NCBI GenBank assembly: GCA_028554795.2
Contig: CM068831.1
Coordinates: forward strand, 30,780,659-30,844,658
Length of the DNA stretch: 64,000 bases
Source: Sinohyriopsis cumingii
Taxonomy: Eukaryota; Mollusca; Bivalvia; Unionida; Unionidae
Reading direction: 5' to 3'
Shown here one piece after another: positions 20,290-54,890 of this stretch (within the stretch, counting starts at the first letter, position 1; each line of letters begins with the position of its first letter). Position numbers and translations under genes: made by a program. The notes under the pieces are model-generated. The model was given only the letters and a program-made list of their open reading frames with translations. It made no database searches and was not told the DNA's origin.

Positions 20290-20969
20290 ACACATCAGAA
20301 GGCGGGAACAGAAACGGTATATATAATGGAGCATGGAACGTCTTTCTCTCTCTCTCTCCGTCTCTCTCTTTCTCGTCCGCCTCTTGTATTCATTTGCAGT
20401 GACTATTTCACCTAGCACCATAAGCTTCCACTGGTGATGTTGTTGGATCGGTTTGGTCAGTATGCCATGGATTTTGGAAAGTTCGTTGATCATCAGTACT
20501 AGGACTGGTAAGGAACATTTGGAAAATTGTTGCCCCACGGTACTGATATCAATGGCAAATTTCATAACCCTTTCAATTAATTTCATGTTTTCCTGTTTAA
20601 GGCACCGTCTTGATACGTTTTCGGTGTGTTTCAAGGATTGAACTTAAAGCTTCGGTGTATTGAATAGTTGCCTCATAGTTATCCAGCAAATGAGATAAAG
20701 CCCAGATTTTAATTTGGTCAAAATATTATTGACACTACAATAACTGCTCTTCGTTATACGTCCCGCTGCAGTTTAAGCTGACTTCTCCATGTCTTTGGTT
20801 TATCCTCTTTCCCCAGGTTGCTGGGCATTAGCTGTTTAAATGAGGCTATTGGTGCTCTCATTGGTAGAGTAATTATTGTAGCTGTTAAAGGCGTGGGTTT
20901 TGTTAATGTGATTGTGGTAAATGTATCTATGATGCCTTCCATTGGCGCATTCAGTACCTATTGTTGGTG
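20290..20969 (-). pseudogene. Decayed minus-strand frame, downstream part, split by the palindromic element
   Basis: Coding-like minus-strand sequence continues here from 30,990-30,651 if the insertion is removed. Immediately left of the insertion it reads about 40 residues, rich in Asn/His and Thr, to a stop. A second phase (20,942-20,754) is Thr/Pro-rich like the right-hand part. After another frameshift a helical, Lys/Glu-rich stretch follows (20,634-20,278), ending in an Arg-Glu run encoded by a CT-rich microsatellite. I cannot identify the protein; a transposon gag-like protein or a host gene relic are both possible. Confidence 0.4.
20965..20969. repeat. Putative target-site duplication, left copy (TGGTG)
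   Basis: Identical to 30,651-30,655. Removing the element and one copy restores an uninterrupted GTTGGTGTTGTTTC junction. Five base pairs matches by chance about once in a thousand, so this is good but not absolute evidence for insertion. Confidence 0.75.
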
Positions 20970-21207
20970 AGCAGCAGAGGGGGCGAATCCGACATTTTGT
21001 CCAATCGTTATTTTGCTTAATTATTACTTCTGCACTCAGCGGATCCGGTGTAGTCAGCGCTGGTAAAAAAAAAACGACGACGTCGTTGGGGGATCGTCCA
21101 ATCGTCATTTGGTTTAATTAACACCTTCTGCGCGCCGATCCCCAGCGTCGTCAGCGTCCGGTAAGCACATCGACGACCGCGTCGATGTCATCGCCCCCTC
21201 TGCTGCT
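20970..21207. repeat. Terminal 238-bp module with its own 17-bp inverted ends
   Basis: The first 17 bp (AGCAGCAGAGGGGGCGA) recur inverted at 21,191-21,207. Between them a block of about 70 bp is directly repeated with divergence: TCCAATCGTTATTTTGCTTAATTA... near 21,000 and TCCAATCGTCATTTGGTTTAATTA... near 21,097, each followed by a TTCTGC...GATCC...GTCAGCG run. The module holds no gene. Terminal repeats with iterated motifs suit an integrase-binding, replication-origin or packaging region; the role is inferred. Confidence 0.75.
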
Positions 21208-21239
21208 AAGGAGTTATTTACAATGAAAATTATTTACAA

Positions 21240-21710
21240 CTAACCGAATATTTGGTCAAGTCCGATACGATATCGTGTCCGAGGATCATGTAAATTTATC
21301 GTTACAAATCCATGTGGGGTCGACTGAGCATGACTAAAAAAGTTTCGAAAACCATTAAAGTCCATGTCACCGCCGCACCATGTCTGCCAAATATTTCGTA
21401 GCGTGTGTGTATCAACGCCGTTGAATACAGCAAGAATATTACAGTTGTCTCTGATTACTTTTGGAATCTGAGTATACCGTTGAGTGACATATATCACGTC
21501 AGTGTTTTTATGCCTGCCTCTGGAAAATATCCTAGCTGGGTTTTTTTGATTGTCTAACATAACATCATCGTACACGACTAGATTGTTAACGTCGCCATCA
21601 ATATCATCAATACCCGGTGCATCATTGATATCTGTAATAAACTCAATAACATTTTTTTTAGCGATCGCTGATGCATTCTCGTTGAAATCTTTCAACACCT
21701 CGTAGCATCG
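21240..21710 (-). pseudogene. A32-like packaging ATPase, C-terminal fragment (left arm)
   Basis: The frame gives 152 residues from a TTG and has no ATG; it opens only a few codons earlier, inside the 53-bp repeat. Counting from the TTG, L-V-V-Y-D-D (residues 40-45) is a Walker B strand with two acidic residues. F-S-R-G-R-H-K (58-64) and V-T-Q-R-Y..I-P-K-V-I-R-D-N (71-85) match the post-Walker-B region of FtsK/HerA-superfamily genome-packaging ATPases of the A32/Polinton type, where the Gln is a sensor residue. The N-terminal half with the Walker A P-loop is absent, so this copy cannot be a working ATPase. The break coincides exactly with a copy of the 53-bp repeat, implying recombination at that repeat rather than random decay. 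Confidence 0.75.
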
Positions 21711-21762
21711 ATGAAGGAACTGTCCTAGTTCCTATAAATAATTATTATGACATTTCCTTCAC
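21710..21762. repeat. 53-bp repeat with inverted ends, copy L1
   Basis: Starts GATGAAGGAACTGTC, contains the hairpin AGGAACT-gtcct-AGTTCCT and an AT-rich core (AATAATTATTAT), and ends TGACATTTCCTTCA. The outer GAAGGAA/TTCCTTC are inverted repeats. This copy has one extra A in the core and a diverged right end. It lies at the 5' break of the ATPase fragment and before the divergent HTH gene. Confidence 0.85.
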
Positions 21763-21829
21763 TACTCTGTCATGGGTCATTGTTGTTGTTGTTGTTGTTT
21801 TACAAAATAAAAAATTTTTTTATTAAATA

Positions 21830-22579
21830 ATGCCACATCGGCGGATTTTAACCGACGAGGATACCAATGAAATAATAAGACTCCGTGGGAAAACACCAAT
21901 ATCGGAAATAGCAGATCGATACAAAATCAGTTACCAGCGCATCTATAAAATCTGGAAAAATGAACCCGACAACGATATCAGAATGATAGACCTCAGCATC
22001 GACGATGAAATAAACCAGATTGTTGATACACCCAGTGATGCGAATTCATCCATGGACGCCATCGTGGATAAACAGACCATTCAGGACTTGCAATGGCGGC
22101 TGAATAATTTGATCAACGAGAATAAATCATTGCAACAACGGTTAAAACACGTGTCAAGCACGGCCGATTATAATCGTATACAACGGCGCTATGATTATTT
22201 ACAACAGCGTTATGACGACTTACAACAGCGACACGATGATATGCAACGGCGTCACGATGATACTCAACGGCGTAACGATGATGCGCAACGACGTAACGAT
22301 GACATGCGACGCACCATTAATGGGCTTCAGCATGAACTTGGGAGTGTTCGGAAGGAATTGAATGAAGCACAACACGATAATGCGCTACTGATTCAGCGAA
22401 TCACCGAAATGACCGCAGTTCCCCCCAGCGAGCCGGAAATAATCAGAAAAAAGAATAAATCTCGTGAGGACAAACCTCGTGAGGATAAATTCACGATCAA
22501 CGAGATCCCCGGTGTGGTATCTCGCAGCGATATTAGGTTTGTGAACCGCATGGACAAGGTGCTTCAAGATAGCGACTAG
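21830..22579 (+). CDS. Helix-turn-helix plus heptad-repeat coiled-coil protein (left arm)
   Basis: 249 aa from an ATG preceded by an AT-rich leader and a (GTT)6 tract. Residues 8-45 read as a resolvase/Homeodomain-like helix-turn-helix (basic start, then I-S-E-I-A-D-R-Y-K-I-S and Q-R-I-Y-K-I-W). Residues 85-195 are a long coiled coil. Residues 118-160 are six near-perfect 7-aa units of Q-R-R-x-D-D-x type, a 21-bp minisatellite at about 22,181-22,309. The C-terminal end is basic (K/R-E-D-K-P repeats). A sequence-specific DNA-binding protein that oligomerises is the natural inference (regulator, or site-binding factor for replication or recombination). Its stop overlaps the stop of the convergent 96-aa gene in a shared CTAG. 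Confidence 0.75.
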   Translation: MPHRRILTDEDTNEIIRLRGKTPISEIADRYKISYQRIYKIWKNEPDNDIRMIDLSIDDEINQIVDTPSDANSSMDAIVDKQTIQDLQWRLNNLINENKSLQQRLKHVSSTADYNRIQRRYDYLQQRYDDLQQRHDDMQRRHDDTQRRNDDAQRRNDDMRRTINGLQHELGSVRKELNEAQHDNALLIQRITEMTAVPPSEPEIIRKKNKSREDKPREDKFTINEIPGVVSRSDIRFVNRMDKVLQDSD

Positions 22580-22866
22580 ACTTTTCGTTCGGTAATTACC
22601 CATACTGTGTCAAATCGTTTGACGTCATGGTTTGGAAACATTTTTTCATATTCTCGTTGGTAATATTTGTCGCGGAGACATAACCGAGCTTTCGCTGAAC
22701 GGCTTTCGAATACCATACAATTGTATTTATCCCCGCTGGGGAATTTCTGAACTGCATGATATTTTCCGTTCTTATATTTTACATTGATCGGCGTTCTCGG
22801 ACAGGATTTTTTATATTCGCTGATGACGCTGTCGAATTTCACCGGGTGATATTCCAACAACGACAT
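22576..22866 (-). CDS. Small basic protein, 96 aa, unknown (left arm)
   Basis: ATG at 22,864-22,866, stop at 22,576-22,578. The product is Lys/Arg/Tyr-rich with no membrane segment and no recognised motif. It is tail-to-tail with the HTH gene, the stops overlapping in CTAG, and head-to-head with the NUMOD-like gene across a 34-bp AT-rich gap that probably works as a bidirectional promoter. Such packing is typical of viral genomes. I assign no function. Confidence 0.65.
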   Translation of the reverse strand: MSLLEYHPVKFDSVISEYKKSCPRTPINVKYKNGKYHAVQKFPSGDKYNCMVFESRSAKARLCLRDKYYQREYEKMFPNHDVKRFDTVWVITERKV

Positions 22867-22900
22867 TATAATTAAAGCCGTTATTTAATTAAATATTAAA
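22867..22900. promoter_or_regulatory. 34-bp AT-rich divergent intergenic region (left arm)
   Basis: Separates the start codons of the 96-aa and 240-aa genes. Composed almost wholly of A and T with a TTAATTAAATATTAAA run. A shared bidirectional promoter is inferred from position and composition. The mirror is at 28,720-28,753. Confidence 0.5.
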
Positions 22901-23623
22901 ATGATATCAGGTGGACGATCCTGGATGAACAGTTGTGCCGAAAACTTTTCCAGACAAGCTAGTCATTTCGTTGACGATGTTGCCTCGGGGCGAATTAAAC
23001 TAGCACCACCGAAATTACCATTATTTCGGTACGACAAAACCAGAATAATTTCTCCGACGAAACAACTTTACAAGGACACTAGAGTCAATACTATCTGTTT
23101 AAATATCAACGAGAAAAAGATCATCGAATTTGATTCCACCGCGGAGACGTGTAAATGGTTCAACCTCAGCCCGGACACAATTCAACAACCCTTTTTTCAG
23201 GCACGAGATGGAATATTATGGATCGTGCTGCGCGGTGATATCGACGCGGAAAAGCGGGCTTGGTTTGATGACATTGATACTCTATTCGATAACGCGATTA
23301 ATAGTCTTCCAGAAAAATATCGGCTGCGGGTCAATTATTTACTCGAGTCCGGAGAAAACAAAACAAAATACGGCCTCAACCCCAAAATACCCACGGTTGC
23401 TGTTAATTTAACTAAACGAACAGTCCTGCGATTCAGTTGTATCAACGAAACGAATAATTACTTCCATGTCGGTACGTCACGAAAGCCGTTTTTTAAGTCA
23501 GCGGGGGATTACTGGATTGTAATTCGCGGTGATAAAAAACATTGTACCACCAAAGAGATAATTTCCGACGCGATGAAGAATTTAACGCCCGACCAGAAAA
23601 ACGCGATGAAGGAACTGTCCTAG
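22901..23623 (+). CDS. Protein with two NUMOD-like repeats, 240 aa (left arm)
   Basis: ATG at 22,901. Residues 63-113 and 165-211 are diverged copies of one ~50-aa domain: a short beta strand ending L-N, then K-x-x-x-x-F-x-S/C-x-x-E-T, an aromatic-rich helix, P-F-F, and W-I-V-x-R-G-D at the end. The first part resembles NUMOD1/IENR-type DNA-binding modules (strand, then a residue-counting helix-turn-helix). That similarity is my judgement by eye. The last residues (M-K-E-L-S) and the stop come from the 53-bp repeat, so the native C-terminus may be lost. DNA binding, perhaps of a homing-endonuclease-associated or viral regulatory kind, is inferred. Confidence 0.65.
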   Translation: MISGGRSWMNSCAENFSRQASHFVDDVASGRIKLAPPKLPLFRYDKTRIISPTKQLYKDTRVNTICLNINEKKIIEFDSTAETCKWFNLSPDTIQQPFFQARDGILWIVLRGDIDAEKRAWFDDIDTLFDNAINSLPEKYRLRVNYLLESGENKTKYGLNPKIPTVAVNLTKRTVLRFSCINETNNYFHVGTSRKPFFKSAGDYWIVIRGDKKHCTTKEIISDAMKNLTPDQKNAMKELS

Positions 23624-23657
23624 TTCCTATAATAATTATTATGACACTTCCTTCATC
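23605..23657. repeat. 53-bp repeat with inverted ends, copy L2
   Basis: The best-preserved copy: GATGAAGGAACTGTCCTAG at the left, GTCATAATAATTATTATAGG on the opposite strand in the core, and TTCCTTCATC at the right, giving inverted ends GATGAAGGAA(C/G)TGTC. It supplies the last codons and the stop of the 240-aa NUMOD-like gene. Confidence 0.9.
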
Positions 23658-23759
23658 AGCGGAGACAACCCCCCCTCCCCGCTATCGAGAAAACCGACCA
23701 CCGAGGAGATAGATTCCTCCATTACTCTAACTGGTCTCCGCCGATGACGACATTTTGAG
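23658..23759. other. 102-bp spacer between 53-bp repeats L2 and L3
   Basis: A non-coding module bounded by inverted GCGGAGAC/GTCTCCGC (about 23,660-23,667 and 23,734-23,741) and containing a C-rich run (CCCCCCCTCCCC) and a GGAG...CTCC stem. It resembles a small excisable or protein-binding cassette between two directly repeated 53-bp units. The mirror copy is at 27,861-27,962. Function unknown. Confidence 0.6.
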
Positions 23760-23812
23760 CGTGAAGGAACTGTCCTAGTTCCTATGATAATTATTATGAC
23801 ACTTCCTTCATC
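23760..23812. repeat. 53-bp repeat with inverted ends, copy L3
   Basis: Same unit and orientation as L2, 102 bp downstream. It carries the G at 23,786 that distinguishes the left arm from the right. It overlaps the stop of the inverted primase-helicase C-terminal fragment (TGA within the repeat's first bases on the minus strand). Confidence 0.9.
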
Positions 23813-24590
23813 ATCGGGAAAACCATCCATTAACCGACCACACATGGAATCGTAACGCGCTGGTATGTTCGTCCGTCGCGGTAACATCTCCTCCAGCGAA
23901 TCCAACATCATCGATGGTCTCGTTGATCCACGCTGGATCACCTACAAAATCAGATTCGGGCCAGTCGGGATAATACAACACGTAGTCGGATCGACCCGAG
24001 TTCTTAGTACCATCCGATTGTAATCGCCCGCCGAATCCTTTGTAGATCGATTTGATTTTTTCAATGATATTTTTTAGCGTCAATTTACCCCTTCTGAACT
24101 TCATATCCGGAAATATATCGCCGAAATGTTTCAACAGCGCGTTATACTTGTCAAGTCGGTCTGGTTGCGCCAGCATCTCAGATACGCTATTGATTAACCC
24201 GGCGCGGCTCACAGGAACGCTCTTCACATCAAGTCGATTCGGAACCACATCGGGGAGACTTAACGCGCCAAGAACATTTCTAACGATGTTAAGTTGTTGC
24301 CGGGGACTGATTTTATCGGATCGACATGGCGTCGTTGCCACAGCGTTACCGTTATTATGCTCGTCAACGAGAACGCGCTGATATCGCTGCAGCCGCGAAA
24401 TGTTTTTATTCAGATGTTCTATCCGGTATTTATCTAGTTTTCTTACATCGGTCTGGAACGTGTAATTGAGATACGTCAACGCCTTTTCATATGGCTCTAG
24501 CCGCTGTTCGGGGTCGTATTGGTAGTATTTATCACCGATTTCATCACCAGTGATTTCATCACCAGTGATTTCATCACCAGTGATTTCATC
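23808..24590 (-). pseudogene. Inverted C-terminal third of the primase-helicase (left arm)
   Basis: Minus-strand copy of the last ~250 residues of the large plus-strand gene, from the D-E-I-T-G minisatellite to the TGA in the 53-bp repeat. Upstream on the minus strand the frame runs into the antisense of the other copy's 5' part, so no primase or helicase domain precedes it. The segment has no motor motifs of its own; the family's C-terminal region here is of unknown role. Confidence 0.85.
24541..24590. repeat. 15-bp minisatellite at the fold-back junction
   Basis: Units of ATTTCATCACCAGTG. The minus strand encodes D-E-I-T-G; on the plus strand it gives the artificial S-D-F-I-T start of the large frame. 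The arm symmetry ends within this array at 24,578, and the sequence then enters the 5' part of the plus-strand primase gene. Confidence 0.9.
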
Positions 24591-27500
24591 GACGAATTGG
24601 GGCGCGGAACATCTTACTACGAGGAGTCCCCGGATGACTTTTTTACGTCCCCGGAAACGTATCACAACTTGCGAGAATACTACCGAAGGCATTTGGGTCC
24701 ATCTTGGAGCGTTTCCAGTAAAAAGACCGCAATTGATCTTCTCACCGTTGCAAACTATCGGTTTCGTGGAGTAATCATACAACAAATGGGGAGATTCCAC
24801 GTGTTCGTAGATGATCCCGACACAAGGGAATTTCAGGGACATTCCGCTGTTAATGAGATTATTCCAAAACACCGGTGCAGATATCCTACCATCGACGTGG
24901 ATTCCAAGACGCCATCGCTGGCCGAGTTGTTGTCGTATTTCCATGAGTTAGTTGATTCCATCAACGATGTTTTGGTTTTTGAAACCAGCGGCGGTTATCA
25001 CATCATGTTGAAAACGATCCCGGTGGATTTCGAGGAACATCAATCGCTGTTGAAGAAAGTCGCCGCGGATAGACCAGCATGGAATGTTGATACGCAAGCT
25101 GGACTGTATAGCATCAAATTGTCCGGAACCAGGTCGGCGAAACCAAACAGCGTTGATAAGCGATTAATTTATCCTGTTGGATTCACCGGCACGCTGCTAT
25201 CTTGTCCGGTCTCTATTCAGCCGTGTTACGAACAACTGAAACCTGAAATTACTGGTGATGAAATCACTGGTGATGAAATCACTGGTGATGAAATCACCGC
25301 TGAACAAATTCGACAATTTTCCACGTTGTTGTCCGGACAACCCGATCAAATCACCGGGACTACAAATCGGCTCGGCAACATAATATCGCTAGGGCGAGTT
25401 GCAGGCTCATTTTGCAGCATATGTCAGCGACGTCACGGATACAATGAGATCGGTGGATTCATCGAAGGAAAGGCCATTGACGCATTTGTGCGTGTTTACT
25501 CTGATCAGTTTGTGATTGGTTGTTACAGAAGCACGCAAAAAATAATAATACCGCGTGATACTGAAGCCGCTGGTGATAAAATCACCGGTGATGAAATCCC
25601 TGGTGATGACGATAAAACCCTCTACGAAAGGTATGTAAGGGGTTTCAATTATCGCCGCAAGGACTACAGTGGAGAGTTTCCCAAGAGGACTCCCGATTAT
25701 ACTTATCACGAGTCACCCGTTCATGAAGGTGGACGCGGATGCAAAATCATTCTCAACGACGACTACATGGATGGATCCCACTGTGGACTCGGCAAGTCAG
25801 AGTCGGCGTGGAAATCAATACGAGATGATCAGTCTGTGTTGTGCGTCTCGTACAGAAAGACATTTACCAGAAAGACCGCCATCGACTACAATCTCGAATC
25901 GTACGAGAGTATCCATGGAGACATTATATTCAACGTTAAAAAGCCTCGTAAAGTCATTTCACAAGTAGAATCAATTGTACGGGTCGGGGGAATTCCCGAT
26001 GTTCTATTGCTGGATGAGTGGCACGGAATTCTTCGCCAGATAGTCTCATCAAGACGCGGTAAACAGATTTGGGGAACACTGACATGGCTGATTTCATCCG
26101 CGAAACGGGTAATTGTACTTGACGCGGACGCTAACAATGACGACTTAGAATTATTCAGGAAATACTTGAATCGCCCGGACATGAAATTCATCACCAACGA
26201 ATATCGGCCCGATCATGGTAAAAAATTTATTGTGGAACAATCTCACAACGACAACTACAGTAAACTGTTGGACATGTTACGACGAGGAAATCGTGCAGTT
26301 GTATTCACGCACAATCGACGCGGAAATTATTCTGTGGAGAAGCTCGCCAAATTGTTACAGCACTTAGGATACCGAGTAAAGTACTATCATGCGTACACTG
26401 ACCCGGCCGAAAAACAACGAGATTTCGCTGATACCACTGCGGCGTTTGAAAACATCGACGTGGTGATCTACAATTGCACCGTCGAGGCCGGGATATCCAT
26501 TGTGGACCCGCGATTCAAGTACATGACAGTGTTTTCCGAGGAATTAGGGTCTGTAGAGGCGACCAAACAAGCCATCCATCGTTTCAGAAATATTTCGGAA
26601 ATACATTATTCAGCAACAAAACGGAGCCGCACAGAGCTTCCACTGACCCGCGATGATATTATTTCCGCAATCGAATCACATGAAAGGGATTTATCGTCGA
26701 CGGAGTTACTGTTTAGAACGCCCAACCGCTTTGATGTACATACCGGTTACGGATACATGTTTATTAGCACGATTATTGACGAGAACAATTCAAAACGTTA
26801 TTTCACGTGCAGACTCGTTGAAATGATGAAACGAACCGGTTATTCAGTTGAATGGGAATTACCAGATGAATACGAAATATGGAAGAAAAAAAAACAACAA
26901 AAGCAGAAACGAGTCAGCGACGCTGTACTTAACAGCGATCCACGCGTAGATGATTTTTTAAAATCCTCCGTCGGAGAGAGAATTGCCGCGGTTAATAGTG
27001 ACAGTGATGAAATCACTGGTGATAAAATCGGTGATGAAATCGGTGATGAAATCACTGGTGATGAAATCACTGGTGATGAAATCGGTGATAAATACTACCA
27101 ATACGACCCCGAACAGCGGCTAGAGCCATATGAAAAGGCGTTGACGTATCTCAATTACACGTTCCAGACCGATGTAAGAAAACTAGATAAATACCGGATA
27201 GAACATCTGAATAAAAACATTTCGCGGCTGCAGCGATATCAGCGCGTTCTCGTTGACGAGCATAATAACGGTAACGCTGTGGCAACGACGCCATGTCGAT
27301 CCGATAAAATCAGTCCCCGGCAACAACTTAACATCGTTAGAAATGTTCTTGGCGCGTTAAGTCTCCCCGATGTGGTTCCGAATCGACTTGATGTGAAGAG
27401 CGTTCCTGTGAGCCGCGCCGGGTTAATCAATAGCGTATCTGAGATGCTGGCGCAACCAGACCGACTTGACAAGTATAACGCGCTGTTGAAACATTTCGGC

Positions 27501-27809
27501 GATATATTTCCGGATATGAAGTTCAGAAGGGGTAAATTGACGCTAAAAAATATCATTGAAAAAATCAAATCGATCTACAAAGGATTCGGCGGGCGATTAC
27601 AATCGGATGGTACTAAGAACTCGGGTCGATCCGACTACGTGTTGTATTATCCCGACTGGCCCGAATCTGATTTTGTAGGTGATCCAGCGTGGATCAACGA
27701 GACCATCGATGATGTTGGATTCGCTGGAGGAGATGTTACCGCGACGGACGAACATACCAGCGCGTTACGATTCCATGTGTGGTCGGTTAATGGATGGTTT
27801 TCCCGATGA
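24579..27809 (+). CDS. AEP-type primase / UL9-like SF2 helicase fusion (5'-truncated)
   Basis: About 1,080 residues. Counting from the TTG at 24,519: a D-V-D metal motif at about 125-128 and S-G-G-Y-H at 156-160 match the archaeo-eukaryotic primase core. C-x2-C-x3-H...C near 300-340 resembles the primase zinc motif. A helicase core follows: G-L-G-K-S P-loop (about 421-425), D-E-W-H Walker B (498-501), V-L-D-A-D motif III (about 535), V-V-F-T-H motif IV (about 596), a C-T-V-E-A-G-I-S motif V (about 655) and Q-A-I-H-R-F-R motif VI (about 684-690). This is the order in herpesvirus UL9/origin-binding SF2 helicases and large-DNA-virus primase-helicases. The role would be primer synthesis and unwinding at origins. 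There is no ATG before residue 90 although 25-89 look coding: the first ~24 codons are antisense minisatellite, so the true start was lost at the palindrome junction. D-E-I-T-G repeats occur at about 245-262, 350-362 and 827-855. Confidence 0.85.
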   Translation, partial: SDFIDELGRGTSYYEESPDDFFTSPETYHNLREYYRRHLGPSWSVSSKKTAIDLLTVANYRFRGVIIQQMGRFHVFVDDPDTREFQGHSAVNEIIPKHRCRYPTIDVDSKTPSLAELLSYFHELVDSINDVLVFETSGGYHIMLKTIPVDFEEHQSLLKKVAADRPAWNVDTQAGLYSIKLSGTRSAKPNSVDKRLIYPVGFTGTLLSCPVSIQPCYEQLKPEITGDEITGDEITGDEITAEQIRQFSTLLSGQPDQITGTTNRLGNIISLGRVAGSFCSICQRRHGYNEIGGFIEGKAIDAFVRVYSDQFVIGCYRSTQKIIIPRDTEAAGDKITGDEIPGDDDKTLYERYVRGFNYRRKDYSGEFPKRTPDYTYHESPVHEGGRGCKIILNDDYMDGSHCGLGKSESAWKSIRDDQSVLCVSYRKTFTRKTAIDYNLESYESIHGDIIFNVKKPRKVISQVESIVRVGGIPDVLLLDEWHGILRQIVSSRRGKQIWGTLTWLISSAKRVIVLDADANNDDLELFRKYLNRPDMKFITNEYRPDHGKKFIVEQSHNDNYSKLLDMLRRGNRAVVFTHNRRGNYSVEKLAKLLQHLGYRVKYYHAYTDPAEKQRDFADTTAAFENIDVVIYNCTVEAGISIVDPRFKYMTVFSEELGSVEATKQAIHRFRNISEIHYSATKRSRTELPLTRDDIISAIESHERDLSSTELLFRTPNRFDVHTGYGYMFISTIIDENNSKRYFTCRLVEMMKRTGYSVEWELPDEYEIWKKKKQQKQKRVSDAVLNSDPRVDDFLKSSVGERIAAVNSDSDEITGDKIGDEIGDEITGDEITGDEIGDKYYQYDPEQRLEPYEKALTYLNYTFQTDVRKLDKYRIEHLNKNISRLQRYQRVLVDEHNNGNAVATTPCRSDKISPRQQLNIVRNVLGALSLPDVVPNRLDVKSVPVSRAGLINSVSEMLAQPDRLDKYNALLKHFGDIFPDMKFRRGKLTLKNIIEKIKSIYKGFGGRLQSDGTKNSGRSDYVLYYPDWPESDFVGDPAWINETIDDVGFAGGDVTATDEHTSALRFHVWSVNGWFSR
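25244..25298. repeat. 15-bp minisatellite inside the primase-helicase (between primase core and Cys motif)
   Basis: Three to four units of GGTGATGAAATCACT encoding D-E-I-T-G, an acidic linker between the primase core and the Cys-rich motif. The unit contains GTGAT...ATCAC, so it is itself partly palindromic and can fold or mispair. Confidence 0.9.
25569..25613. repeat. 15-bp minisatellite, third array (diverged)
   Basis: Three diverged units (D-K-I-T-G, D-E-I-P-G, D-D-D) in the linker before the helicase domain. Confidence 0.8.
27003..27091. repeat. 15-bp minisatellite, fourth array
   Basis: Mixed 15-bp (D-E-I-T-G) and 12-bp (D-E-I-G) units between the helicase and the C-terminal region. 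The arm boundary (27,042) lies inside. The left-arm equivalent has a different unit order, so copy-number change or misalignment happened here. Confidence 0.9.
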
Positions 27810-27860
27810 TGAAGGAAGTGTCATAATAATTATTATAGGAACTAGGACAGTTCCTTCACG
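27808..27860. repeat. 53-bp repeat, copy R3
   Basis: Mirror of L3; it supplies the TGA stop (27,807-27,809) of the primase-helicase frame. Confidence 0.9.
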
Positions 27861-27962
27861 CTCAAAATGTCGTCATCGGCGGAGACCAGTTAGAGTAATG
27901 GAGGAATCTATCTCCTCGGTGGTCGGTTTTCTCGATAGCGGGGAGGGGGGGTTGTCTCCGCT

Positions 27963-28015
27963 GATGAAGGAAGTGTCATAATAATTATTATAGGAACTAG
28001 GACAGTTCCTTCATC
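27963..28015. repeat. 53-bp repeat, copy R2
   Basis: Mirror of L2; supplies the stop of the right-arm NUMOD-like gene. Confidence 0.9.
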
Positions 28016-28719
28016 GCGTTTTTCTGGTCGGGCGTTAAATTCTTCATCGCGTCGGAAATTATCTCTTTGGTGGTACAATGTTTTTTATCACCGCGAATTA
28101 CAATCCAGTAATCCCCCGCTGACTTAAAAAACGGCTTTCGTGACGTACCGACATGGAAGTAATTATTCGTTTCGTTGATACAACTGAATCGCAGGACTGT
28201 TCGTTTAGTTAAATTAACAGCAACCGTGGGTATTTTGGGGTTGAGGCCGTATTTTGTTTTGTTTTCTCCGGACTCGAGTAAATAATTGACCCGCAGCCGA
28301 TATTTTTCTGGAAGACTATTAATCGCGTTATCGAATAGAGTATCAATGTCATCAAACCAAGCCCGCTTTTCCGCGTCGATATCACCGCGCAGCACGATCC
28401 ATAATATTCCATCTCGTGCCTGAAAAAAGGGTTGTTGAATTGTGTCCGGGCTGAGGTTGAACCATTTACACGTCTCCGCGGTGGAATCAAATTCGATGAT
28501 CTTTTTCTCGTTGATATTTAAACAGATAGTATTGACTCTAGTGTCCTTGTAAAGTTGTTTCGTCGGAGAAATTATTCTGGTTTTGTCGTACCGAAATAAT
28601 GGTAATTTCGGTGGTGCTAGTTTAATTCGCCCCGAGGCAACATCGTCAACGAAATGACTAGCTTGTCTGGAAAAGTTTTCGGCACAACTGTTCATCCAGG
28701 ATCGTCCACCTGATATCAT
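27997..28719 (-). CDS. Protein with two NUMOD-like repeats, 240 aa (right arm)
   Basis: Mirror copy with the same translation and the same repeat-encoded C-terminus. It begins 34 bp from the divergent 96-aa gene. Confidence 0.65.
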   Translation of the reverse strand: MISGGRSWMNSCAENFSRQASHFVDDVASGRIKLAPPKLPLFRYDKTRIISPTKQLYKDTRVNTICLNINEKKIIEFDSTAETCKWFNLSPDTIQQPFFQARDGILWIVLRGDIDAEKRAWFDDIDTLFDNAINSLPEKYRLRVNYLLESGENKTKYGLNPKIPTVAVNLTKRTVLRFSCINETNNYFHVGTSRKPFFKSAGDYWIVIRGDKKHCTTKEIISDAMKNLTPDQKNAMKELS

Positions 28720-28753
28720 TTTAATATTTAATTAAATAACGGCTTTAATTATA

Positions 28754-29044
28754 ATGTCGTTGTTGGAATATCACCCGGTGAAATTCGACAGCGTCATCAG
28801 CGAATATAAAAAATCCTGTCCGAGAACGCCGATCAATGTAAAATATAAGAACGGAAAATATCATGCAGTTCAGAAATTCCCCAGCGGGGATAAATACAAT
28901 TGTATGGTATTCGAAAGCCGTTCAGCGAAAGCTCGGTTATGTCTCCGCGACAAATATTACCAACGAGAATATGAAAAAATGTTTCCAAACCATGACGTCA
29001 AACGATTTGACACAGTATGGGTAATTACCGAACGAAAAGTCTAG
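28754..29044 (+). CDS. Small basic protein, 96 aa, unknown (right arm)
   Basis: Mirror copy with the same translation. Divergent from the right-arm NUMOD-like gene across 34 bp and overlapping the HTH gene at the stops. Confidence 0.65.
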   Translation: MSLLEYHPVKFDSVISEYKKSCPRTPINVKYKNGKYHAVQKFPSGDKYNCMVFESRSAKARLCLRDKYYQREYEKMFPNHDVKRFDTVWVITERKV

Positions 29045-29790
29045 TCGCTATCTTGAAGCACCTTGTCCATGCGGTTCACAAACCTAATATCGCTGCGAGA
29101 TACCACACCGGGGATCTCGTTGATCGTGAATTTATCCTCACGAGGTTTGTCCTCACGAGATTTATTCTTTTTTCTGATTATTTCCGGCTCGCTGGGGGGA
29201 ACTGCGGTCATTTCGGTGATTCGCTGAATCAGTAGCGCATTATCGTGTTGTGCTTCATTCAATTCCTTCCGAACACTCCCAAGTTCATGCTGAAGCCCAT
29301 TAATGGTGCGTCGCATGTCATCGTTACGTCGTTGCGCATCATCGTTACGCCGTTGAGTATCATCGTGACGCCGTTGCATATCATCGTGTCGCTGTTGTAA
29401 GTCGTCATAACGCTGTTGTAAATAATCATAGCGCCGTTGTATACGATTATAATCGGCCGTGCTTGACACGTGTTTTAACCGTTGTTGCAATGATTTATTC
29501 TCGTTGATCAAATTATTCAGCCGCCATTGCAAGTCCTGAATGGTCTGTTTATCCACGATGGCGTCCATGGATGAATTCGCATCACTGGGTGTATCAACAA
29601 TCTGGTTTATTTCATCGTCGATGCTGAGGTCTATCATTCTGATATCGTTGTCGGGTTCATTTTTCCAGATTTTATAGATGCGCTGGTAACTGATTTTGTA
29701 TCGATCTGCTATTTCCGATATTGGTGTTTTCCCACGGAGTCTTATTATTTCATTGGTATCCTCGTCGGTTAAAATCCGCCGATGTGGCAT
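29041..29790 (-). CDS. Helix-turn-helix plus heptad-repeat coiled-coil protein (right arm)
   Basis: Same 249-aa translation as the left-arm copy, including the six 7-aa units. Preservation of the minisatellite copy number between the arms is notable because such tracts normally change fast, so the arms must be very young or kept identical by recombination. The 68 bp before its start (29,791-29,858) are AT-rich with an (AAC)n tract and presumably carry its promoter. Confidence 0.75.
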   Translation of the reverse strand: MPHRRILTDEDTNEIIRLRGKTPISEIADRYKISYQRIYKIWKNEPDNDIRMIDLSIDDEINQIVDTPSDANSSMDAIVDKQTIQDLQWRLNNLINENKSLQQRLKHVSSTADYNRIQRRYDYLQQRYDDLQQRHDDMQRRHDDTQRRNDDAQRRNDDMRRTINGLQHELGSVRKELNEAQHDNALLIQRITEMTAVPPSEPEIIRKKNKSREDKPREDKFTINEIPGVVSRSDIRFVNRMDKVLQDSD

Positions 29791-29857
29791 TATTTAATAA
29801 AAAAATTTTTTATTTTGTAAAACAACAACAACAACAACAATGACCCATGACAGAGTA

Positions 29858-29910
29858 GTGAAGGAAATGTCATAATAATTATTTATAGGAACTAGGACAG
29901 TTCCTTCATC
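29858..29910. repeat. 53-bp repeat, copy R1
   Basis: Mirror of L1; lies between the divergent HTH gene (starting at 29,790 on -) and the ATPase fragment. Confidence 0.85.
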
Positions 29911-30380
29911 GATGCTACGAGGTGTTGAAAGATTTCAACGAGAATGCATCAGCGATCGCTAAAAAAAATGTTATTGAGTTTATTACAGATATCAATGATG
30001 CACCGGGTATTGATGATATTGATGGCGACGTTAACAATCTAGTCGTGTACGATGATGTTATGTTAGACAATCAAAAAAACCCAGCTAGGATATTTTCCAG
30101 AGGCAGGCATAAAAACACTGACGTGATATATGTCACTCAACGGTATACTCAGATTCCAAAAGTAATCAGAGACAACTGTAATATTCTTGCTGTATTCAAC
30201 GGCGTTGATACACACACGCTACGAAATATTTGGCAGACATGGTGCGGCGGTGACATGGACTTTAATGGTTTTCGAAACTTTTTTAGTCATGCTCAGTCGA
30301 CCCCACATGGATTTGTAACGATAAATTTACATGATCCTCGGACACGATATCGTATCGGACTTGACCAAATATTCGGTTAG
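29910..30380 (+). pseudogene. A32-like packaging ATPase, C-terminal fragment (right arm)
   Basis: Identical in translation to the left-arm fragment. It reads out of the 53-bp repeat (upstream in-frame TAG inside the repeat) and ends at a TAG at 30,378-30,380, 32 bp before the terminal 238-bp module. It lacks Walker A. Two identical fragments and no complete copy in the window mean that any packaging function would have to come from elsewhere. Confidence 0.75.
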
Positions 30381-30412
30381 TTGTAAATAATTTTCATTGT
30401 AAATAACTCCTT

Positions 30413-30650
30413 AGCAGCAGAGGGGGCGATGACATCGACGCGGTCGTCGATGTGCTTACCGGACGCTGACGACGCTGGGGATCGGCGCGCAGAAGGTGTT
30501 AATTAAACCAAATGACGATTGGACGATCCCCCAACGACGTCGTCGTTTTTTTTTTACCAGCGCTGACTACACCGGATCCGCTGAGTGCAGAAGTAATAAT
30601 TAAGCAAAATAACGATTGGACAAAATGTCGGATTCGCCCCCTCTGCTGCT
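30413..30650. repeat. Terminal 238-bp module, right copy
   Basis: Mirror image of 20,970-21,207, with the same internal 17-bp inverted ends and diverged direct repeat. It contains the A/T-run and CGACGACGTCGT palindrome also seen at 21,064-21,086. Confidence 0.75.
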
Positions 30651-30655
30651 TGGTG
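30651..30655. repeat. Putative target-site duplication, right copy (TGGTG)
   Basis: Partner of 20,965-20,969, directly outside the right terminus. Polintons usually give about 6 bp and many retroviral-type integrases 4-6 bp, so the length fits an integrase-type insertion. Confidence 0.75.
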
Positions 30656-51002: not shown

Positions 51003-51850
51003 TGTTACGAGTCTATGCTCTTAAAATAAGTAACAGAAAAGAATGAAGACAACAAGTTTTGTAAAATTTAATTAATAATTTCTTTCCCTAGAATAAAAAG
51101 TGTAAAAAAAAGGAAACAAAAAGAACTTACGGTATTGCGAATTAAATCCAAAAATAATCCAAGAATTATAAACACAAGTGTCCTATCAATGAAAAGTTCT
51201 AAGTGAATCTCAGTTCAAATCCCGATGAAGTTCAAGATAGATGGAGTTGACGTCTGTAATAATCTTCAAAGTGCATATGAGTCAACAGTTTCTTGTTGAA
51301 TCACAGAAAACATTATTCCAGTTTTGAATTCAGTATAAATTACAGTAAATGTCTTTATCCAAGAATTTTGTCAGGTCACCTTTCATATTTCCAGGGGAAA
51401 TTAATCACATGAATTCAATAATTTGAAGAAAATAAAATTCATCCTCAACTGGTCACGACATAATACAACTTAATGAATCAAGTGTTAAAAGCCCAACTGA
51501 AAATTTTTTATGGAAACATCAATTGTACAACTAACTAAAACGCAAAACAGATTCACTGATAGGGGTCAAGAGTTCATTCTTTTGGAAAAAGTTTGTTATC
51601 AATTGACACATGATAAAAATGACGCAGTCTTTGACCCAGCTTAAAGATTTTTTACTCTGAGACAGATAAAAAGAATATTAAAACAAGTTGTTTACTTGAA
51701 TAGCAACTCGGTCAATCAGCTCATACACATATAATCTAATGAAGCTATAAAGAACAAGAAAGATTGATATAATCAACCATAGGTCAATTTTACATGTGGT
51801 TTATACAAAAAAATAACATGAGAAAAAATATTATGAATGATACAAAGTAT
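51003..51850 (-). repeat. Left LTR (3' LTR of the minus-strand element)
   Basis: Begins TGTTACGAGTCTATGCTC and is collinear with 53,937-54,700 through the AACTTACGGTATTGCGAATTAAATCC, AAATCCCGATGAAG, CAACAG...TTGTTGAATCACAGAAAA and GGGGTCAAGAGTTCATTC blocks. The inner end is uncertain. Confidence 0.75.
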
Positions 51851-51893: not shown

Positions 51894-52532
51894 TTAAATG
51901 ATCTTTTCCCTTGATGTGCCTGATGTCAATATTATATTCCTGTAATAACAAACTCTACCTAGTAATCTCTGGTTTTTGTTTTTCATCTTGCCGATGAAAG
52001 TAAGGGAGTTCTGATCACTAATCACATTAATCGGAGAAGGAGATGAACTAATGTGAACTTCAAAGTGTTGTAATACCAATATCAAAGACAGACATTCCAC
52101 CTCGATTGTGGAATACTTTATTTGCTGCTTATTTAATTTCTTACAAAAGGAGCACACGAGATGATCAACAACATTTTTATCTTCTTGAATCAATATTACT
52201 CCAACCCCAACATCACTTGCATCAACAGACAGTTTAAATGATTGACATAAATTTGGAGCTATAAGAACTGGTGCACTCTTAAGTATTGCTTTTAACTTAT
52301 CAAAAGCCTCCTGACACTTTGTAGACCAAAGAATCGCATTTGAAATGAAATAACAAAGATGTACTTCTGTGGCATCAGTTTCACCAGTGGCCCTTTGAAA
52401 CAAATAGGAGATCGTAGGATCTTTTTCCTGTTCGACGACAAGTGATTTTCGTTTGTCACCCTGATTAGAATAAAGAGAATGAGTAGTTAAAACAGGATCA
52501 CTGTAGCAATACCCTTTGATTGATCCAAACAA
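51894..52532 (-). pseudogene. Gypsy RNase H domain fused to pre-integrase spacer
   Basis: A 212-codon frame. The first ~55 residues match the spacer seen at 58,640-58,810 (T-H-S-L-Y-S-N-Q-G-D-K, then E-K-D-P-x-I-S-x-L-F-Q-R). From about residue 68 it is the reverse transcriptase thumb/RNase H of Ty3/gypsy: W-S-T-K-C-Q-E-A-F-D-K-L-K, the catalytic-type D-A-S-D-V-G-V-G-V strand, Y-S-T-I-E-V-E-C-L, and M-K-N-K-N-Q-R-L-L. The fusion of spacer to RNase H is the scar of the internal deletion. The starting codon is TTG, so the frame limit has no biological meaning. Confidence 0.8.
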
Positions 52533-52539
52533 GGAGTGA

Positions 52540-53170
52540 AAGTGACCTCATCAAAAGCCTGACCAATACATTTGTCAGCTAAATAAATACTTTCCTGATC
52601 AACATCATTCTCAAGAGCTTTATTTGCCATAGCTCTCATAACAGCACACGCTGGGTATAAATCAGGGAATTCTTTTTTCAGTGGGATAGAATTTCTGATC
52701 CAAACAAAGTTTGTCAGTTACAAATGGATTAACCACAACCTTATCTCCAGCTAGGTCATTGCCTAGTAGTAAATGCCTAGTATTAGTCTCTTGCAAATTC
52801 GATATGAGTTTGTCCAGCTTCTCTTTTATAGTTCCTGAATTTTGGCCGATAAGCCTCAGGGATTAACTCATCACCCTTTAAGATGCATTCCATATCCAGG
52901 TCATAGTCAGCACTCTGCTTTACTGATAGGGATGAATAGATGTCTCAGGTTTGCCAGAATGTACACTCTGTAATAATATAGTACAGTACTCCCTATGCCA
53001 TTTCGAATTTTTAGCAATGTTTTTCAAAATGAGGAAATTATTTACCTACTTCTTTTTCTCTAAAAGGGGGCACAAACCTTATATTGTTAGTAACATCAAA
53101 ACTTGAATTTGTATGTAAAGTGGGAATGCGTTTTTCACTTGTCAGCTCTAATCCTCTTAATCTAAATTAA
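52540..53170 (-). pseudogene. Decayed gag/protease-proximal region
   Basis: Broken minus-strand sequence collinear with 58,400-58,640 of the plus-strand element: the A-N-K-A-L-E-N-D-V-N-Q-E and P-D-L-Y-P-A-C-A-V stretches can be read in shifting frames. No intact protease D-T-G triad seen. Confidence 0.5.
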
Positions 53171-53936: not shown

Positions 53937-54890
53937 TGTTGCGATTCTATCCTCTTAAAATAAGTAGCAGAAAAAGTGAAGACAACAAGCTTTGGAAAAT
54001 TTTACAAATAATTTATTTCCCTAGAATACAAAGGGAAAAAAAGAAAACAAAAAGAACTTACGGTATTGCTAATTAAATCCAAAAATAATCCAAGAATTAT
54101 AAACACAAGTCCTATCAATGAAACGTTCTAAGTGAATCTCAGGTCAAATCCCGATGAAATTCAAGATGGAAGGTGATGACGTCTGTAATAACCTTTAAAA
54201 TGCAGATGTGTCAACAGTCTATTGTTGAATCACAGAAAATATTATTCCAATTTTGAATTCAGTATAAATTCCAGTAAATATCTTTATCCAAGAATTTTGT
54301 CAGAGCACGTTTTGTATTTCCAGGGAAATAAAAAATCACTTGAATTTAATAATTTGAAGAAAATAAAATTGAGCCGAAACTGGTCACAACATAATACAAC
54401 TTAGCGAATCATGTGTTAAAAGCTATAATGACAATCCTTTATAGACACGTCAGTTATTCAACTAATTTAATCGCAAAACAGATTCCCGGATGGGGGTCAA
54501 GAGTTCATTCTTTTAAAAAATATAAGTTTGTTATCAATTGACACATGATAAAAATCACGAAGTCCAGGTATGACCTTGACTCAACTTAACATTCTTACTC
54601 TGAAACAGATATAAACATATTAAACAAGTTGTTTACTTGAATAATAATTCGGTCAATCACTTCATGCACATAGAATGTAATGAACCTTTTTTTAGTTTTT
54701 TTACGTAAACGAAATACATATTTTTTTAAAAACTCAGTCAGGTCAAGCAGAAATGAACTCAATTTTGGACAAGGTCAAGTCCAGTAAACAATGTTACATT
54801 ACAATAGTATGTAATAAAATTTTTCAAAATATTTAAACTAACAGACAAATAATTAAATTAAATATGCATCACGTCCCGTTATAATAATTT
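53937..54890 (-). repeat. Right LTR (5' LTR of the minus-strand element)
   Basis: Starts near TTGCGATTCTATCCTCTTAAAATAAG (a variant of the TGTTACGAGTCTATGCTC end) and runs through the same blocks as the left LTR, continuing into AAGGTCAAGTCCAGTAAACAATGTTACATTACA at 54,769-54,801 and an AT-rich tail. The outer limit is approximate. Confidence 0.75.

Follow-up and report, generated by a model that had tools for sequence, protein, structure and literature searches.

The locus described here raises the question of how an integrated element with virus-like genes came to be an almost perfect palindrome. It occupies positions 20,970 to 30,650 of a 64,000-nucleotide stretch of the bivalve Sinohyriopsis cumingii (GenBank assembly GCA_028554795.2, contig CM068831.1, forward-strand positions 30,780,659 to 30,844,658), the whole of which we call the window. 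The element consists of 3,609-bp inverted arms with one mismatch (23786, G/A) and 2,463 bp between them; the 17-bp sequence AGCAGCAGAGGGGGCGA stands exactly at both ends, and TGGTG lies directly outside each, beyond which the left and right flanks differ. These coordinates, ends and duplication reproduce an original prediction made from the window's letters alone, which took the element for a rearranged member or satellite of an undescribed viral or Polinton-like lineage.

With a probability of about 0.64, we propose that the window element belongs to a family of giant palindromic satellites and has lost its centre; the satellites would live off a co-resident Polinton, be inherited as palindromes through a hairpin turn-around, and be inserted by the Polinton integrase. 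The Polinton link, the probable satellite status, the rearrangement of this copy and a lineage undescribed in the literature that we searched all carry over from the prediction. The palindrome itself was misplaced there as the rearrangement: the family is multi-copy, its central hairpin is conserved, and palindromy appears to be its inherited organization; what was rearranged in the window is the centre, which was lost.

Palindromic copies and their shared axis

Family searches and copy comparisons were made in this one genome of 2.905 Gb, in which the window lies on C8. With a helicase DNA probe of 2,420 bp, scoring of the best 40 of 285 candidates yielded 71 matches, of which 40 span 2,100 bp or more. 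Thirty-six of these 40 form 18 outward-facing inverted pairs, 1.5–3.3 kb apart, and four are single among the matches listed (the window, C18, C19 and C8:75.06 Mb); the 2.8 kb read at C18 contain the axis tip followed by a second arm without the N-terminal part of its helicase. With the related protein P0001 as probe (best 43 of 1,167 candidates scored), 10 inward pairs, 4 outward pairs and 15 loci unpaired among the matches listed were obtained, and both of the unpaired loci inspected (C151 and C9:86.36 Mb) are palindromic.

Ten outward copies, compared in pieces that were never joined, are all near-perfect palindromes whose main arm blocks are 99.35–100% identical, and eight of them match themselves straight through the axis (94.6–99.4% with tip and gaps counted). 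The eight outward palindromes whose ends were read measure 12.5–14.7 kb, start with AGCAGC and are flanked by the duplications CCAGT, ACACA, GATTA, ATTGT, TAGGG, TGAAA, TCCTG and ACAAT; in C16a and C16b, N runs on the left make the ends unreadable, and C151 was read from its left end to 4 kb past the axis. An inward palindrome on C10 is 11.9 kb long with the duplication GTACC. A 5-bp target duplication is thus found in 10/10 palindromes with both ends read (eight outward, the window and inward C10), all starting with AGCAGC, and the same-genome search that the original prediction had proposed as a check returned copies that end at the same point; one of its two refuting outcomes, differing ends without such duplications, was thus not borne out.

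Reading from axis to end, the outward order (read in C102 and C10) is a Cys-rich open reading frame (ORF), the helicase, a NUMOD-like gene, a small ORF, a helix-turn-helix (HTH) gene and the terminus; a remnant of an ATPase gene is present in the window and in two of eight outward copies compared (C9a and C11b). Inward copies (L035, L036, L041) have the terminus beside the Cys-rich ORF, about 630–670 bp from the helicase start, and in inward C151 the axis lies beyond the HTH gene. The two clades differ in the helicase by a synonymous divergence (dS) of 0.43–0.68. Among ten copies, the ratio of nonsynonymous to synonymous divergence (dN/dS) of the helicase is 0.15–0.28 in 44/44 pairs shown, out of 45 (C102 and C17 are nearly identical), a range that indicates purifying selection in the copies examined. 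Over a 1.6-kb helicase stretch, the nearest relative of each arm is the other arm of the same element in seven of 11 elements, the remaining four forming two identical sibling pairs (C102/C17 and C16a/C16b), and main-block arm differences run from 0 to 28 substitutions across insertions. Both arms seem to have been copied from one template shortly before insertion and to have drifted apart since. The family genome, in the copies examined, is a head-to-head inverted dimer of a unit of about 6–7 kb.

The axis sequence of C102 is present in 13/13 palindromes whose centre was available (C99, C102, C17, C11b, C13, C16a, C16b, C11a, C9a, C10, C126, inward C10 and inward C151). The sequence is rich in AT (GC 0.28–0.34 in seven copies), contains CGCGG motifs and forms a stem; at its tip, compared in seven copies, GACCCCTAAGCA on one side stands opposite AGCAAGG, and in all four copies folded the predicted stem exceeds 50 bp and carries a bulge. 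The 160 bp on either side are 79–100% identical among nine copies, inward C151 being 79–87% identical to the others with its flanking genes reversed; beyond the centre, no match between C151 and C102 exceeds 105 bp. The motif CGCGG/CCGCG occurs eight times in the central 400 bp of C102 versus 19 times in the remaining 6,324 bp of that half, and six times in 400 bp versus 11 times in 3,721 bp in C151, the central counts being doubled by the palindrome itself. The axis sequence was not found in six pieces of Polinton. Because the same axis occurs in two clades with opposite gene order and the helicase dS given above, palindromy with this axis is probably older than the clade split.

This centre is missing from the window. 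In C102 the intact helicase gene opens with ATGGATAATCATTATTCCAATAACACC-TTCATC-GACG, whereas in the window TTCATC-GACG is preceded by array DNA, with no ATG upstream of the first conserved residues. The comparison, which uses the intact start of C102 and not the actual parent, points to a deletion at the 6-bp microhomology TTCATC that took the whole axis and the N-terminal part of one helicase. A deletion between an inverted DEITG array and codons 10–11 of the other helicase would account for the absence of the ATG as well as for a single-copy centre of 2,463 bp. In C17, C10 and C18, the axis is deleted on one side.

Genes, the co-resident Polinton and a possible life cycle

Much of the gene set named in the original prediction was recovered with Pfam: a UL9-type helicase (PF02399, Herpes_ori_bp, 2e-10; 39.9 bits in the window, with 40.4 as a second score, the cut-off being 20), an A32-like ATPase piece (Pox_A32, 5e-5) and a protein with a resolvase-type HTH (HTH_7, 2e-5) and a coiled coil. 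The NUMOD assignment proved weak, since the window protein has no NUMOD match and only its relative P0002 reaches NUMOD1, at 0.0044, below the cut-off; four relatives of this protein were found among 246 candidates, two of them on Sinanodonta woodiana chromosomes. The helicase protein is 1,050 aa long, its N-terminal 380 aa belong to no recognized family, and its predicted structure has a mean local distance difference test score (pLDDT) of 29. Two motifs in the N-terminus, DVDS and GGYH, look primase-like by eye. A four-sequence helicase profile has the herpes origin-binding proteins as best PDB relatives, with only about 115–130 residues aligned, and a collection of 5.8 billion proteins yielded one match (7,996 candidates scored), P0001, 67% identical over the whole length. 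RepA of phage phiHAP-1 was rejected as a relative, its similarity (27% identity over 27%) being that of the superfamily only.

The window ATPase remnant begins at about residue 65 of its relatives, so that the Walker A motif is lost. Among 53 candidates (E up to 10), 48 are relatives, the complete ones being about 220 aa long with the Walker A motif GPSGSGKT, and all lie on contigs of 0.5–3.1 kb except P0040 of S. woodiana. Dozens of distinct Polinton-ATPase relatives (P0006–P0053) thus sit in short public contigs, perhaps collapsed repeats of host genomes. A model of the full-length P0006 (22 sequences, pLDDT 76.6) resembles packaging ATPases (STIV B204 in PDB, E 3e-7) and also matches A32-like and adenovirus IVa2 proteins in BFVD. 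In P0029, a relative available as protein only, the reading frame continues past the gene end into terminus-coding sequence, where the inner inverted motif (A') keeps its distance from the gene and a different flank follows the outer motif (A). No relatives of the window element were found in the viral-contig and genome-contig collections; six matches of the terminal 17-mer in viral contigs were taken as chance.

Full-length relatives of the ATPase piece, which the prediction had suggested looking for, also exist as intact copies in the co-resident Polinton, which is abundant and homogeneous. When P0006 was searched against the genome, the best 150 of 41,313 loose first-look candidates (a number that is no copy count) were scored; 150/150 cover the full 220 aa at 92–95% identity, and 149 are stop-free. 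One such locus, a 15,866-bp element at C10:75423006-75438871 read in pieces (L046, L045, L037), is flanked by the duplication GTTAG and has terminal inverted repeats (TIRs) 97.8% identical over 231 bp. By gene content it is a Polinton: Pfam recognizes a double jelly-roll (DJR) capsid protein (PF21738, 3.9e-20), an rve integrase (1.1e-8) and a DUF5679 Zn-ribbon, and a 1,165-aa protein has an SF1-type helicase (AAA_19, 1e-10) together with a PolB-like palm and an HNH motif seen by eye only. There is a weak adenovirus-protease match below the cut-off, and a further product without Pfam match is presumably the minor capsid protein (mCP). The element sits in a long coding-like minisatellite of MTTINLDVLA-type repeats (L046:30-3465, L037:2364-3638).

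Of 12 satellite ends, 11 are 76–84% identical to the TIRs of this Polinton; the exception, C11b, reaches 52–53%. Inside the ends, at 228–263 bp, the inner A' CTGCTGCT is exact in 7/14 ends (window, C10, C126, C11b, C11a, C9a and the left Polinton end) and has one or two mismatches in 5/14 (C13, three inward ends and the right Polinton end). The terminal 745 bp of the window element (757-column alignment) are 80% identical in DNA to the Polinton, and the ATPase piece appears to have come with this Polinton-type end. The Polinton major capsid protein, integrase, PolB-like/helicase protein, protease and mCP gave no tblastn match at 1e-4 in 19 satellite loci (of 35); judged by gene content, the satellite is not a Polinton. 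The terminus of C11b (L019:1800-2040) keeps AGCAGC and A' yet is only 51–58% identical to all other ends compared, possibly because ends were swapped or because a second subfamily of helper exists. In the left flank of C126 (L033:1030-1660) lies an ATPase of Polinton type whose longer match is about 67% identical, so that this satellite adjoins another Polinton-like copy.

From these observations we infer the mode of replication and the dependence on the Polinton. The axis would be the hairpin terminus of a free form, or its replication junction; a UL9-type helicase would open an origin at or near it, where the CGCGG motifs concentrate, and replicating DNA would turn round at the hairpin, making every new molecule a fresh palindrome. 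The finished palindrome would present two identical Polinton-type ends, by which the Polinton integrase could insert it, and at 12–15 kb it would fit a particle holding a 15.9-kb Polinton. In the window, a microhomology-type deletion would then have removed the axis and one helicase N-terminal part and frozen the copy. The chances are about even that these elements form a new mobile-element class, a Polinton satellite palindromic by inheritance, in which a UL9-type helicase system would copy the hairpin-ended free genome round a conserved, not fully paired tip, while the Polinton integrase would insert the unfolded inverted dimer and the Polinton capsid perhaps carry it. No described mobile element is, to our knowledge, palindromic by design, and no title or abstract opening found in the open-access literature searched concerns one palindromic by inheritance or a palindromic Polinton satellite. 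If this proposal is right, animals have a counterpart of virophages in a Polinton satellite, a 12–15 kb palindrome with a replication gene under selection, and a genome built on a hairpin is able to spread in the manner of a transposon. Each insertion carries its own clock in its two arms, and with helper and satellite both multi-copy in one genome the dependence is directly testable.

Several points weigh against this proposal. The satellite is known from one genome assembly alone, not from free molecules, transcripts or particles. TIR identity with the Polinton examined is just 76–84%, and 52–53% in C11b, and the true helper may be another Polinton subfamily; the inner A' is missing at the usual place in C102 and C17 and partial in inward copies. 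Similarity is lower in the blocks that span the axis than in the arms (94.6% in C126, counting tip and gaps), and the selection estimate covers solely copies whose frame stays open for 1,000 aa or more. Pfam matched no primase domain in the helicase N-terminus (three proteins). Hairpin resolution is left without an enzyme because a nuclease, resolvase or transposase domain was recognized in no satellite gene; for the HUH replication endonucleases in particular, seven ORFs of the window region and two extra central ORFs gave no Pfam match, although a diverged enzyme could escape.

Competing origins and known systems

A rather unlikely alternative is an ordinary double-stranded palindrome, in which the axis serves only as a replication origin and never as a hairpin while gene conversion keeps the arms identical. 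The herpesvirus oriL is palindromic, and the combination of a UL9-type helicase with an AT-rich palindrome enriched in CGCGG (C102, C151) would suit such an origin. The 0 to 28 arm substitutions, however, fit free divergence after insertion, so conversion would be needed mainly before it, and an unpaired bulge is retained at the tip of 4/4 copies folded. Of similarly low probability is an autonomous transposon using its own unrecognized enzyme, such as the Cys-rich or the HTH protein, with ends that are merely Polinton-like. Several satellite ORFs have no known domain, and most satellite TIRs are closer to each other than to that of the Polinton; against this, the end motif and the 5-bp duplication are shared with the Polinton, which encodes an rve integrase, and the ATPase remnant joins the satellite to Polinton-type DNA.

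Independent fold-back would make each palindrome a snapback or defective-interfering genome, formed by a separate template switch from a longer ordinary parent and inserted once. The asymmetric snapback genomes of adeno-associated virus (AAV), as PMC8235507 describes them, are self-complementary with the same terminus at both ends and have a single-copy middle, which the damaged satellite copies (window, C18, C17, C10) resemble, and short palindromic repeats lie at the window junction. Those snapbacks are subgenomic by-products of varying length (same paper), whereas the satellite has one axis across clades and is inserted with target duplications. The shared axis is the main argument against separate accidental fold-backs: independent events would give different axes, whereas the axis is the same in 13/13 palindromes of two clades at a helicase dS of 0.43–0.68. 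A longer parent with this helicase was not seen among the loci examined, which are a minority. We consider this origin improbable. A single snapback derivative of an ordinary parent was rejected for the family on account of the shared axis, and native long TIRs of a normal virus were rejected on two grounds: in the window the arms stop within the helicase gene, and in complete copies the palindrome continues across the axis. An assembly artefact of reads folded back on themselves, of which near-perfect inverted arms are the usual sign, is very hard to reconcile with differing flanks and target duplications on both sides in 10/10 readable copies, arm mismatches in 8/10 main blocks, the same axis in unlinked copies and one-sided centre deletions.

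Set beside known systems, the proposed satellite is closest in its ends to Polintons/Mavericks, sharing TIRs, a target duplication and AG-type ends, although its AGCAGC differs from the mainly (AGT)2 or (AG)3 termini, and its 5-bp duplication (10/10, and also in the co-resident Polinton examined) from the 6 bp of vertebrate Mavericks, given in PMC8097293. Its TIR is similar to that of the co-resident Polinton and some copies share the ATPase end, whereas it has no match to the integrase, capsid, PolB-like or protease proteins (19 loci), no intact ATPase, and a wholly palindromic genome. Polintons/Mavericks carry capsid genes, and according to PMC8097293 their particles had not yet been observed when it was written. 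Poxvirus hairpin telomeres and concatemer junctions, as presented in PMC8956199, resemble the satellite axis in having an incompletely paired hairpin and, in duplicated form, an inverted-repeat junction. The likeness is one of form: an AT-rich hairpin with conserved unpaired bases was found in 4/4 satellite axes folded. In the satellite no resolvase was found, there is one axis per element, and the outer ends are of Polinton type. The poxvirus and AAV comparisons are analogies, which would concern the way of working and not membership. With herpesvirus UL9 the helicase has the PF02399 domain in common, within a 1,050-aa protein and over a limited alignment.

The satellite resembles virophages and Polinton-like viruses as a small integrating element that probably relies on a larger virus, but PMC3671162 and PMC4642659 give them S3H/TVpol replication genes, in contrast to the UL9-type gene of the satellite, in which no capsid gene was recognized. 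The helper of virophages is a giant virus, that of the satellite presumably a Polinton. Foldback transposons also have long inverted repeats, which are mostly non-coding, whereas the recognized genes of the satellite all lie within the palindrome.

Features of the window

The features of the window element are collected in Table 1. When the window was scanned with AGCAGCAGAGGGGGCGA at up to three mismatches, four occurrences were found, each with 0 mismatches, against 0.01 expected: one at either end and an inverted copy 238 bp inward of each. Folded as single-stranded DNA, the terminal 238 nt have a z of -5.6 against shuffles.

Table 1. Coordinates of the palindromic element and its parts within the window
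Feature	Position	Strand	Basis
Target site duplication TGGTG, left	20965..20969	.	Direct repeat abutting element
Left inverted arm, 3,609 bp	20970..24578	+	Self-comparison; one mismatch with right arm
Terminal repeat, left; 17-bp inverted ends A (20970-20986) and inner A' (21191-21207)	20970..21207	+	
C-terminal remnant of A32-like packaging ATPase without Walker A part, left arm	21240..21731	-	Pfam and relatives
HTH and coiled-coil protein, left arm	21827..22579	+	HTH_7 2e-5; 248-aa counterpart in C102
Small conserved ORF, left arm; in C102 about 96 aa counted from its ATG	22576..22884	-	ORF comparison
NUMOD1-like protein, left arm	22889..23623	+	Relatives in Sinanodonta woodiana 67-71% identical
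Second helicase copy, truncated, C-terminal part	23811..24578	-	
Array of 15-bp GATTTCATCACCAGT (inverted DEITG repeat) at junction	24537..24590	.	
Single-copy centre: helicase N-terminal part only, central hairpin of the family absent	24579..27041	+	Comparison with complete copies
Putative deletion junction, 6-bp microhomology TTCATC (DEITG array / helicase codons 10-11)	24585..24590	.	
UL9-type helicase, open to stop; codons 1-9 including ATG lost at junction	24588..27809	+	
Array of 15-bp GTGATGAAATCACTG within helicase; not in relative P0001	27004..27093	.	
Right inverted arm, 3,609 bp	27042..30650	-	Self-comparison
49-bp hairpin repeat between convergent genes	27810..27858	+	DNA fold z -4.6
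NUMOD1-like protein, right arm	27997..28731	-	Relatives
Small conserved ORF, right arm	28736..29044	+	ORF comparison
HTH and coiled-coil protein, right arm	29041..29793	-	ORF; C102 counterpart
ATPase remnant, right arm	29889..30380	+	Pfam and relatives; 80% DNA identity with Polinton L037
Terminal repeat, right	30413..30650	-	77-80% identical to both TIRs of Polinton C10:75423006-75438871
Target site duplication TGGTG, right	30651..30655	.	Direct repeat abutting element

The 15-bp near-palindromic units that encode DEITG (GTGAT-GAA-ATCAC) are expanded at three helicase sites (25244-25297, 25570-25609 and 27004-27093), the last array being shorter in C102. A role of these arrays as a conserved origin was dropped because P0001 lacks the units. 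Further window copies of the 49-bp hairpin lie at 27965-28013 and about 29860-29908 and, in the left arm, at 23607-23655 and 23762-23810. Hairpins of about this size are scattered through the satellites (L015, L019, L021, L027, L029), one abutting the broken edge of the ATPase remnant, and may be terminators, recombination hot spots or tiny mobile repeats. Scans of the window with Rfam and for tRNAs gave no match. Near the right end of the window are repeated blocks (51003-51746 and 53937-54687) and, on the reverse strand at 51894-52547, a putative Gypsy-like ORF.

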